Of a stretch of 64,000 nt of DNA, positions 41,819-45,194 are shown in pieces; position 1 is the stretch's first letter, and the number at the start of each line of letters is the position of its first letter. Made by a program: the position numbers and the translations under genes. This stretch comes from Actinomycetota bacterium (GTDB lineage Bacteria > Actinomycetota > Coriobacteriia > Anaerosomatales > Anaerosomataceae). Under the pieces are notes generated by a model, which searched no databases, was not told the DNA's origin, and saw nothing but the letters and a program-made list of their open reading frames with translations. The DNA lies in the NCBI GenBank assembly GCA_009773565.1, contig WSXY01000009.1, positions 1 through 64,000 of the forward strand, written 5' to 3'.

Positions 41819-41895
<77 letters not shown>

Positions 41896-42075: not shown

Positions 42076-43614
42076 GTGACAGGCAAGGTGCGCATCTTCG
42101 TAAGTTCCGTGCAGAAGGAACTGGAGGACGAACGCGTCATTGTCCAGCACCTTCTGAGCACTGATGCGTTCCTTTCTGCCCACTGCGAACCAGTGCTGTA
42201 TGAATACGAGCCGGCCTCCGCTGAGAAGGCGTCGGAGGAGTGTCTGGAGCGACTCGACGGATGCCGCGTCTACGTGGTGATCGTGGGGCAGAAGCAGGGC
42301 GCCGGGGTCGGGAGTCTCACAATCACTCACATGGAGTACCAGCGAGCGAAGAAGGGTGGCCTCCCCGTTCTGGCATTCATCAGGGGAGAGCGGCATGTTT
42401 CTCGTGAAGACGGCGCATCCGCGCTCCTGGAAGAGATTGAGTCGGACGGCCTGAAGTACAAGCGGTTCGGAAACGTGGTCGATCTGCAGCGCGAGGTGCG
42501 CGGCTCGCTGGTGCAGTTGTTGGAATCACGCTTCGGTCTCTCGCCAAGCAGCGATGAGGATCAGGTTGCGGAGCAGACGATCGCCGCTACGTCTGTTTTC
42601 GAATCTCGGCCGCTGGACCACGTACGCTGGTCCGACCTCGATTACGGTATGACTCGCCGACTCGTCGCTGAGGCCAGCGCTGTTGAGGAGATGGCGCTGT
42701 CAGAAGGCGAGGTTCTCACTGGGGCTGCTCTGCGCGGGCTGGTGTGGCGCGCAGCGGCTACAGGTGAGTACTACGCAACTGCGGCCGGCGTGCTGCTGCT
42801 GTCCGATGATCCCTCGGCCGTCTTTCCGCAGTGCCGCATTCTGGCCGACGCCTACGTTGGAATCCAGGCCGATAGCACACCGCGTGACCATGAGGACATC
42901 AGAGAGCCGATTCCTCGGGCGGTTGAGCGAGCAGTGGAGTTCGTCGAACGCAATACGCGCCATCCGATGCGTGTGGTGGGGTTGAAGCGGATTCGCCTTG
43001 ATGAGTACCCGCCTGAGGCATTGCGTGAGGCGTTGGTGAATGCATTGGTTCATCGGCAATATGAGGATGCCGGCCGAAAGATCTTGCTGGAGGTCTTCGC
43101 CGACAAGGTGGTCGTTTCAAGTCCGGGGCTCCCTCCGTCCCCGATTACCCTTGCGGCTCTGCGTACGGGCAAGTACCGCCCGTGTTCGCGGAACCCGGTG
43201 CTTGCTCAGGGCCTGTCGTACTTCCAACACATTGAGGAGCGGGGAAGTGGCTTTCGCCGGATGCGTGACCGGATGCTAGACCATGGGCTCGATACACCCA
43301 TCCTAACGACGGATAGTGGGTACTTTCAGGTAACGCTACTGGGTCCCGGCGAGGACATCGAGCGCCTTCGCACGCCGGAAGGAGTGTCGGTATCGCCGGC
43401 GATCATGGCGAGCCTAAATGATCGACAACGGGTGATTCTTGAGCATGTGGTGGAGTCTGGTGATGTGACCACTCGTTGGTGCATAGAGCGGTTTGAAGTC
43501 GCTCGCGACACCGCACACCGTGATCTCGTGGACATGGTCGCGCTTCGCCTACTTGTGCCCACGGGCTCCGGTCGCTCTGTGAAGTACACTCTTGCGACCG
43601 CGGATGACGACTGA
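42076..43614 (+). CDS. DUF4062 / RecG-C-like GHKL ATPase / winged-helix fusion protein
   Basis: A 512-residue predicted cytoplasmic protein. The DUF4062 domain (about 1-110) opens with VRIFVSSVQKELEDER and includes VYVVIVGQKQG. A middle part (about 225-320) resembles the linker of proteins annotated RecG-like or divergent AAA. Then comes an HATPase_c_4 (GHKL) domain with EYPPEALREALVNALVHR at about 312-329 and the EERGSGFRRMRD box. A winged-helix domain (about 445-505) ends the chain. In the usual form of this family the N-terminal domain is an AlbA_2/Schlafen domain; here DUF4062 takes its place. Function unknown; regulation or defence are possible. It sits right after tRNA-Pro in an island-like module. 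Confidence 0.8.
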   Translation: MTGKVRIFVSSVQKELEDERVIVQHLLSTDAFLSAHCEPVLYEYEPASAEKASEECLERLDGCRVYVVIVGQKQGAGVGSLTITHMEYQRAKKGGLPVLAFIRGERHVSREDGASALLEEIESDGLKYKRFGNVVDLQREVRGSLVQLLESRFGLSPSSDEDQVAEQTIAATSVFESRPLDHVRWSDLDYGMTRRLVAEASAVEEMALSEGEVLTGAALRGLVWRAAATGEYYATAAGVLLLSDDPSAVFPQCRILADAYVGIQADSTPRDHEDIREPIPRAVERAVEFVERNTRHPMRVVGLKRIRLDEYPPEALREALVNALVHRQYEDAGRKILLEVFADKVVVSSPGLPPSPITLAALRTGKYRPCSRNPVLAQGLSYFQHIEERGSGFRRMRDRMLDHGLDTPILTTDSGYFQVTLLGPGEDIERLRTPEGVSVSPAIMASLNDRQRVILEHVVESGDVTTRWCIERFEVARDTAHRDLVDMVALRLLVPTGSGRSVKYTLATADDD

Positions 43615-43633
43615 GCAGCAGCGTCCGACGTAT

Positions 43634-43674
43634 TCATCCGATAATCATCCGATTTGGCGGCCGTAATCATCCGA
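43634..43674 (+). repeat. Three short direct repeats TCATCCGA
   Basis: TCATCCGA occurs at 43634-43641, 43645-43652 and 43667-43674, the latter two as AATCATCCGA. They lie just after the DUF4062 gene in an AT-richer intergenic stretch (43615-43910) that otherwise holds the tRNA-end repeat, a hairpin and the next promoter. Spacing is irregular and no CRISPR features are seen. Confidence 0.6.
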
Positions 43675-43712
43675 CTCTTGCGACTTCACTTGACAGTTGC
43701 ACTGGTTACAAA

Positions 43713-43733
43713 CGCGTTTACTAAGTCCGACCA
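43713..43733 (+). repeat. tRNA-end repeat, copy 2
   Basis: The 21 bases ending in AAGTCCGACCA match copy 3 (45172-45192) at 19 positions; differences are T/C at bases 7 and 14. The last ten bases match the tRNA-Pro 3' end with one mismatch. A hairpin follows eight bases later. Confidence 0.7.
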
Positions 43734-43904: not shown

Positions 43905-43910
43905 GTGTCT

Positions 43911-45062
43911 ATGGTCATACGGACTCATATACTCGATTCGATTCGTAGTGCGCTCGGCCGAGCTCCGGTCGTCGTCTTGTCGGGGCCACGGCAGTGCGGT
44001 AAGACCACGCTTGCGCGACAGTTCCTGAGTCCGGACTCGCTCAACTACTTCGATCTTGAAGATCCGACGAGCCTGGCTCGGCTGGACGAGCCGATGACGG
44101 CGCTCGGAGCGCTTGAGGGACTCGTTGTCATCGATGAGGTCCAGCGTCGGCCAGACCTGTTTCCTGTTCTACGGGTCTTGGTGGATCGAGATCTTTCACC
44201 TGCACGTTTCCTCATCCTGGGCAGTGCCTCGGGGGAGTTGGAGCGACAGAGTTCCGAGAGCCTGGCCGGTCGCTCGGAGCGAATTAGCATGGGCGGCTTC
44301 ACACTCGCCGAGGTCGGCGCCAGCGAGCAGGATCGTCTCTGGGAGCGCGGGGGCTTTCCGCGGTCCTTTCTTGCTACCAGCGATACTGACAGCGCTGTGT
44401 GGCGTAGTCAGTTCATGCAGACGCTCCTGGAGCGTGACTTGCCTCAGTGGGGGGTGAGCGTTCCCGCGACGGCACTTCGACGGCTTTGGACCATAGTCGC
44501 CCACTACCACGGCCAGACCTGGAATGCGTCAGACGCCGCCAGGACCTTGGATGTCAGCCAGCCGATGATCAAGCGCTACCTGGATCTGTTGACCGATGCC
44601 AACGTCGTGAGGCAGCTGCAGCCGTACTACGCGAATCTAAAGAAGCGACAGGTGAAGTCGCCGAAGGTCTATGTCCGGGACAGCGGCGTGCTGCATCGGT
44701 TGCTCGGCATCTCCGGCCAGAAGGACCTCGTCGAGCATCCCAAGGTGGGAGCTTCCTGGGAGGGCTTCGTCATCGAGCAGATCATCTCGCTCGAGCGCCA
44801 TGAGGATGCGTGGTTCTGGGCCACGCATCAAGGTGCCGAGATTGACCTTGTGATGCAGCGGGAAGGTCGGCTCCTCGGGGTGGAGATCAAGCGGACGGAC
44901 GCACCCAGAATCACACCATCTGTTCGAATCGCATTGGAGGACCTAGGTCTCGAGCGAGTCGCGATCGTCTATCCGGGGAACAAGCGGTACCCGTTGGCTG
45001 CAAGTGTGGAGGCGGTCCCTCTCAGGGACCTGGCCGAAGCCCCCGGTCGGCTGTTCGGGTAG
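43911..45062 (+). CDS. AAA_14 / DUF4143 ATPase
   Basis: A 383-residue P-loop ATPase. Walker A is GPRQCGKTT at about 25-33 and Walker B LVVIDEVQRRPDLF follows near 70; the sensor-like segment FLILGSAS is next. The DUF4143 part covers about 200-360, with a winged-helix-like WNASDAARTLDVSQPMIKRYL and the nuclease-like EGFVIEQI, GAEIDLV and LGVEIKRT residues, which resemble a PD-(D/E)xK-type fold. The ATG at 43911 is preferred to GTG 43905 because of the leaderless arrangement. Members of this family are sporadic, often mobile, and of unknown role. It is the only gene of the second module. Confidence 0.88.
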   Translation: MVIRTHILDSIRSALGRAPVVVLSGPRQCGKTTLARQFLSPDSLNYFDLEDPTSLARLDEPMTALGALEGLVVIDEVQRRPDLFPVLRVLVDRDLSPARFLILGSASGELERQSSESLAGRSERISMGGFTLAEVGASEQDRLWERGGFPRSFLATSDTDSAVWRSQFMQTLLERDLPQWGVSVPATALRRLWTIVAHYHGQTWNASDAARTLDVSQPMIKRYLDLLTDANVVRQLQPYYANLKKRQVKSPKVYVRDSGVLHRLLGISGQKDLVEHPKVGASWEGFVIEQIISLERHEDAWFWATHQGAEIDLVMQREGRLLGVEIKRTDAPRITPSVRIALEDLGLERVAIVYPGNKRYPLAASVEAVPLRDLAEAPGRLFG

Positions 45063-45171: not shown

Positions 45172-45192
45172 CGCGTTCACTAAGCCCGACCA
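45172..45192 (+). repeat. tRNA-end repeat, copy 3
   Basis: Ends in AAGCCCGACCA and continues with GC, so 12 bases (45183-45194) are identical to the 3' end of tRNA-Pro and its flank. The upstream part is nearly identical to copy 2. It marks the right edge of the second module. Confidence 0.75.
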
Positions 45193-45194
45193 GC

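Follow-up and report, generated by a model that had tools for sequence, protein, structure and literature searches.

A DUF4062-GHKL-winged helix gene in a tRNA-Pro island

The window, i.e., the whole 64,000-nt stretch of Actinomycetota contig WSXY01000009.1 that was analyzed, contains a gene preceded by tRNA-Pro(ggg) and followed by three short direct repeats and an AAA_14/DUF4143 ATPase gene (Table 1). Pfam searches assigned two domains to the encoded protein above the curated cut-offs, DUF4062 and the GHKL domain HATPase_c_4, and gave weak winged helix-turn-helix (wHTH) matches at residues 450 to 506. No match to AlbA_2 or SLFN_AlbA_2 was obtained in the 512-aa sequence at an E value of ≤0.1, an absence that is meaningful because SLFN_AlbA_2 is recovered with this library from sister proteins built on the same frame. 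The reading of the initial annotation, in which DUF4062 takes the place of AlbA_2 on a GHKL-wHTH frame, is thus borne out. The DUF4062-HATPase_c_4-wHTH architecture is common to 41 aligned sequences from many phyla and is therefore not a chance fusion. The GHKL motifs are kept in this alignment, with invariant E318 and N322 in the N-box, which lies just upstream of the Pfam match, and invariant G390 and G392.

Table 1. Features of the gene, its repeat array, and the surrounding island
Feature	Coordinates	Strand	Remarks
tRNA-Pro(ggg), probable integration site	41819..41895	+	
DUF4062-HATPase_c_4-wHTH protein	42076..43614	+	ORF, GTG start, 512 aa
DUF4062 (TIR-like) domain	42091..42348	+	Pfam PF13271, residues 6-91, E=1e-14; modeled TIR-like fold, residues 2-158
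Glu87 codon	42334..42336	+	Invariant; aligned with catalytic E97 of KpSwz
HATPase_c_4 (GHKL) domain	43072..43338	+	Pfam PF13749, residues 333-421, E=2e-20
Winged helix, in the exchanged wHTH-array module	43408..43593	+	Residues 445-506
Third wHTH helix region	43501..43539	+	Residues 476-488; helix in AF2 model, residues 477-489
Array site 1, ATTCATCCGAT	43632..43642	+	
Array site 2, AATCATCCGAT	43643..43653	+	
Array site 3, AATCATCCGAC	43665..43675	+	
AGTCCGACCA, degenerate copy of tRNA 3′ end	43724..43733	+	Weak
AAA_14/DUF4143 ATPase	43905..45062	+	PADLOC candidate PDC-S01
AGCCCGACCAGC, 12-nt copy of tRNA 3′ end	45183..45194	+	Possible far island end

An AF2 model built from the 41 homologues (mean pLDDT, 73.5; low confidence in the GHKL part) was compared with known folds. 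Its residues 2 to 158 match TIR folds (SPARTA, Z 13; SARM1, Z 11.7) and also the NDT/DNPH1 enzyme folds (Z 13), and residues 252 to 507 match 3lmm loosely (Z 11.4; rmsd, 11.6 over 200 residues). The stretch from residue 110 to 225, for which a regular AlbA_2 domain had been considered, is occupied in the model by the TIR-like domain up to about residue 155 and then by a family-typical linker.

The tRNA-Pro(ggg) gene that follows coaBC is an integration hotspot in the same family, as seen in the window, L124, and L129, which agrees with the initial placement of the gene in a tRNA island. Among relatives, the last 45 nt of tRNA-Pro are duplicated in G002 at a distance of 7.5 kb; in G014, an insertion of ∼15 kb separates a 5′ piece of the tRNA from the complete tRNA gene; and in G015, an ABC-F gene lies only 1.1 kb after tRNA-Pro, with no DUF4062 gene there. 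The nearest homologue (L001; 69% identity) likewise has a piece of a DUF4143 gene nearby. No R-M, BREX, or Hma genes lie beside the window copy, and HmaB is absent from the window genome.

The N-terminal domain as the probable effector

A 2026 preprint on distant relatives of the window protein describes DUF4062 as a TIR-like NADase and reports Swarozyc of Klebsiella pneumoniae (KpSwz) as a DUF4062 antiphage protein with the phage portal as trigger and E97 as the catalytic residue (PMC13174449). The family profile matches KpSwz over residues 3 to 104 (E=5e-9). In this alignment, E87 of the family falls on an Ala in chain 10wc, whose deposited construct carries E97A, and a natural relative reads TEKEFDYA at the aligned position. 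E87 is invariant in all 41 aligned sequences. Since NADase activity has been reported for DUF4062 (PMC13174449), the Glu is invariant, and sister proteins hold a Schlafen RNase effector in the same position (PMC12839542), the DUF4062 N terminus is probably the effector, a TIR-like NADase with E87 as its catalytic residue. The initial annotation had taken DUF4062 as the input and the ATPase-wHTH part as the output; on the same three grounds this polarity is probably reversed, with switch and address the more likely roles of the ATPase-wHTH part. By homology with the systems in the literature, NADase activity and abortive infection would be the expected outcome, and the compact sensor-effector that had been suggested stands as a candidate. 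The main text of the preprint does not use the terms RecG, HATPase, or GHKL (PMC13174449).

About 60% of homologues reside in defense operons

Searches of genome contigs returned 48 matching loci, of which 45 contain a usable gene; identities are mostly 56 to 69%, and nearly all homologues derive from metagenome-assembled genomes. The hosts span Actinobacteria, deltaproteobacterial groups, Verrucomicrobia, Planctomycetes, Elusimicrobia, and methanogenic archaea, and occurrence is patchy: besides the window genome, a full-length copy was found in 1 of 60 relatives, and in Desulfobacterota in 4 of 247 genomes, counting the one used as the center.

As assigned from PADLOC matches and local HMMs built from those genes, about 28 of the 45 loci (∼60%) lie within Hma, type I R-M, type III R-M, or BREX operons, so the expectation that proteins of this architecture would have defense genes as neighbors, rather than sitting consistently in housekeeping loci, was confirmed. 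Hma (helicase-methylase-ATPase; PMC8565338), named Type-1 BR in PMC12839542, provides the most frequent setting (∼19 of 45 loci, with adjacent hma genes). Type I R-M genes stand beside the gene in about seven loci. In L018, a type III R-M system contains the gene in the order mod, gene, array, res, and in a BREX locus (L038:8142-13593), gene and array are located between two pglX halves that match the PglX model over positions 1 to 626 and 623 to 1170. An exact 4-nt overlap with the upstream gene was found in 14 of the 16 cases that could be assessed. Of the 45 carrier genomes, 24 contain HmaB, versus 28 of 247 Desulfobacterota (Fisher P=2e-9), an enrichment that is supporting only, because the two genome sets differ in taxonomy. 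We propose that the homologues in Hma, BREX, and R-M operons act as a backup effector.

DUF4062 and Schlafen domains share one frame and one operon slot

Proteins composed of Schlafen (AlbA_2), a minimal histidine kinase, and a wHTH are described as backup effectors of BREX/BR systems (PMC12839542), a paper in which the term DUF4062 was not found. When Hma loci were picked by HmaB alone and the gap between hmaA and hmaB was inspected, it contained divergent DUF4062-frame genes in L080 and L081, an AlbA_2-frame gene overlapping hmaA by 4 nt in L087, and an AlbA_2 remnant in L078; L013 and L041 have genes of both frames. Pfam confirmed the domains in L013, L080, L081, and L087. From these contents it follows that DUF4062 and Schlafen domains can replace each other on a common frame within a single operon slot. 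SIR2 was considered as a third effector on the frame and discarded: the PADLOC SIR2-PNTD model matched residues 170 to 351, and one genomic match covered the SIR2 part only. The genes of L080 (11191-12600) and L081 (7374-8843) bear other short repeats at the 3′ end (AAACCCGTCA and CCAAAGGGGC) with different spacing.

Three direct repeats follow the gene

Every core copy examined carries 11-bp direct repeats at or just past its stop codon. A register scan located three sites in 38 of 39 copies, at offsets 0, 11, and 32 in nearly all of them and 0, 11, and 33 in the window; in the 39th copy (L048), the array lies within the end of the ORF. The sites, all in the same orientation, recur at about one and two helical turns. 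Each repeat starts with AATC, and the next six or seven bases vary between loci and agree within a locus. Some ten unit classes can be told apart, the three sites of an array matching one another at fixed spacing. Shuffled sequence (1.28 Mb) yielded no array by chance, none was present in those fetched Hma loci that lack the gene, and sites 1 and 2 form the sole such tandem pair in the window's genome. Neither a sigma-70-type promoter-like site near the window array nor a trigger was found. A role of the repeats at the RNA level was discarded, as the predicted folds were no better than those of shuffled sequences. The literature searched, with incomplete coverage, held no description of the array.

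Some proteins of the two frames, AlbA_2 and DUF4062, have tandem 12-bp repeats in frame before the wHTH, which read GQVAGQVA (L063:7992-9503), TIDKTIDK (L018:2631-3950), or EHVTEHVT (L042:3162-4619) and may represent DNA sites of the array kind placed in frame. The protein from Legionella anisa ends in a Fic-like_C wHTH, and Fic proteins may therefore share such in-frame repeats.

Repeat unit and recognition helix covary

Copies that are more distant in wHTH residues 470 to 488 also have more distant repeat units (Mantel r=0.76; P=0.0005, the floor of 2,000 permutations), and the correlation between unit and recognition helix spans r=0.76 to 0.80. Correlations with the TIR domain (r=0.01), the core (0.02), and the GHKL domain (−0.01) are about zero, and the twenty best-associated alignment columns all fall within the wHTH. 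Helix 3 retains a partial r of 0.70 given the remaining wHTH, versus 0.13 for the remaining wHTH given helix 3. Prediction from the nearest neighbor in residues 470 to 488 misses 0.31 of the 5 variable bases, compared with 2.15 when a random other copy is taken. Positions 477 and 481, R and H in the window protein, covary with the unit: ATCC is found with R477 and H or Y481, GTCC with K477/H481, TTCC with Y477/N481, and GACC with N or K477 and G481. Copies outside the scored alignment also fit this code, namely L069 (47% identical; GTCC), L032 (CATC), and L048 (GTTA/GTAA); L036 fits in part only. This covariation suggests that the wHTH binds the array DNA, and physical linkage alone could explain part of it.

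The wHTH moves together with its array in exchanges, which leave relic arrays behind. Between copies with different units, DNA similarity usually stops at the wHTH start, a median of 197 nt before the stop codon. It runs through the array in 11 of 522 different-unit pairs versus 43 of 93 same-unit pairs (Fisher P=7e-30; the pairs are not independent). L021 shares 91% identity with L024 as far as the wHTH and differs from it thereafter, and the second, downstream array of L021 is of the L024 type. Further arrays of other types were found in L007, L019, L041, and other loci, and relic arrays are less uniform (P=0.008 in a small sample). The proposed DNA address could therefore be changed without touching the effector. 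Arrays that lack a preceding DUF4062-frame gene also occur, directly behind hmaA or an ATPase gene (L013:4606, L013:6404, and L040:6280); these are probably relics of lost copies.

Arrays in virus contigs

Virus contigs were searched by exact match to the first two array sites. Four of the contigs recovered (L089, L092, L093, and L094) have extra sites near the expected offset (32 to 34), and we regard the arrays of these four, found by the first two sites and then by further sites near the offset, as reliable. None of the four records contains PF13749. L093 is clearly a phage, with terminase, portal, and major head protein genes; its terminase large subunit (L093:4835-7393) is apparently interrupted by an intein-like insert. 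Looser patterns added L100, L101, L103, and L108, and single viral matches are weak because a control pattern of the same composition also gave 2 matches. Several candidates were set aside: the tandem-site match in L090 lies in a coding region, has no third site, and is probably due to chance; the matches in L095, L096, L098, L099, L102, and L104 (AATCCCCCGAC) have a common spacing, lie within a reading frame in a single local context, and were judged unrelated, as was a coding repeat in L097.

The viral arrays tend to mix unit types, and L089 holds several side by side. No family wHTH was found in the fetched virus stretches, which for most contigs comprised the flanks only, and no homologue of the window protein was found among the viral contigs. 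The arrays may be decoys, targets, or inherited relics.

A proposed modular effector with an exchangeable DNA address

The protein is probably a modular, one-gene abortive-infection effector that joins a NADase, a GHKL switch, and an array-reading wHTH. Residues 1 to 155 would form the TIR-like NADase, with the catalytic role of E87 predicted from homology, and residues ∼160 to 425 would supply the linker and the GHKL ATP-binding switch common to Schlafen-type (AlbA_2) proteins. The winged helix (residues 445 to 506) would bind the three 11-bp direct repeats past its own gene, as the strong covariation suggests. ATP state and DNA occupancy would keep the NADase domains apart or line them up, a control of their arrangement that is proposed because TIR NADases need oligomerization. 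The window copy would act on its own in the tRNA-Pro island and the homologues as backup within their Hma, BREX, or R-M operons, and swapping of the wHTH-array module would change the DNA address while the effector stays untouched.

Alternatively, the protein might be mainly a transcriptional regulator of its operon, comparable to the control (C) proteins of R-M systems, its wHTH acting on the 3′ array to control the next gene (res, hsdS, or hmaB) and DUF4062 serving as a ligand sensor rather than a toxin. The covariation of array and wHTH would suit such a role, as would the location of the array, which separates the gene from the one that follows it in the operon, as in the L018 order. We nevertheless consider it unlikely: the catalytic Glu is invariant, the Schlafen sister has an RNase in the same place, solo copies such as that of the window lack an R-M gene that they could regulate, and the window region lacks a sigma-70-type promoter-like site. 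Even less seems to speak for arrays that are functionless for the protein, with covariation arising only from linkage and joint exchange. wHTH and array are indeed exchanged as a block, and arrays move with the gene, but helix 3 outperforms the equally linked rest of the wHTH, the three sites agree with each other at constant spacing in some ten unit classes, relic arrays are less uniform in a small sample, and a homologue of 47% identity fits the code, which makes this explanation very unlikely.

An attC-like recombination site for an integrase, with the gene as a passive cassette, would account for the DNA similarity that across contexts often extends from about −12 to about +50 around the ORF and for the extra arrays that L013 and L040 carry at the 3′ end of genes other than this one. 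The unit, however, tracks the gene's own wHTH rather than host or neighbors, the repeats are direct and show no fold beyond shuffles, and no integrase was noted in the gene lists examined; such a site is therefore extremely improbable. As for the viral arrays, they might instead be sites that the defense protein attacks or that trigger it, given that arrays whose geometry is identical or similar occur in virus contigs without the gene. Selection should, however, remove a free target, and L089 mixes several unit types as a decoy or an inherited relic would, so that we regard the target reading as distinctly unlikely.

Beyond the modular effector itself, it is possible, if on balance doubtful, that defense toxins of the NADase or Schlafen type carry a self-contained, exchangeable DNA address: the wHTH would read the array at the end of its own gene, bacteria would diversify by swapping wHTH and array together with relics staying behind, phages would carry mixed arrays as decoys, and peptide repeats such as GQVAGQVA and TIDKTIDK would correspond to such DNA sites set in frame. 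If this were true, an arms race would be written in short repeats, and the phage arrays would offer a concrete anti-defense hypothesis, that of DNA decoys. The analysis connects two recent strands of research, one on the TIR-like NADase DUF4062 and one on the Schlafen-ATPase-wHTH backup effectors of BREX and R-M systems, by placing both effectors on one frame and in a single operon slot. The code relating array and wHTH is the more surprising part, as it would provide a ready-made recognition code and a record of specificity changes.

Comparison with known systems

The closest solved protein with HATPase_c_4 and a C-terminal wHTH is DIP2311 of Corynebacterium diphtheriae (3lmm), whose entry title records no function; the sequence match to the window protein covers these two parts and not DUF4062. 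R-M control (C) proteins are small HTH proteins with an operator upstream of their own gene and the restriction gene, whereas the DUF4062-frame array lies 3′ of its gene, sometimes before res or hsdS. Swarozyc resembles the window protein in its DUF4062 domain with a conserved active-site Glu and appears to differ in its C terminus, a portal-binding AUX domain where the window protein has the GHKL ATPase and wHTH. Beyond residues 3 to 104, KpSwz shows no sequence alignment; AUX itself also has an HTH/winged fold, and a distant kinship with the C-terminal part of the window protein may exist. No three-site array was found beside the Swarozyc-like gene of L062.

In Hma/Type-1 BR operons, DUF4062-frame homologues sit between hmaA and hmaB with the 4-nt overlap to hmaA, but the core definition of these systems does not include the gene, and the window genome has no HmaB. 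A parallel in organization is provided by the effectors made of Schlafen, a minimal histidine kinase, and a wHTH, which, like the window protein, have HATPase_c_4 followed by the wHTH and occupy a slot in Hma operons in common with DUF4062-frame genes. Their location at the BREX/BR core is shared by the homologues and not by the window copy, and their N terminus is an RNase-type AlbA_2 domain where the window protein has the TIR-like DUF4062 instead.
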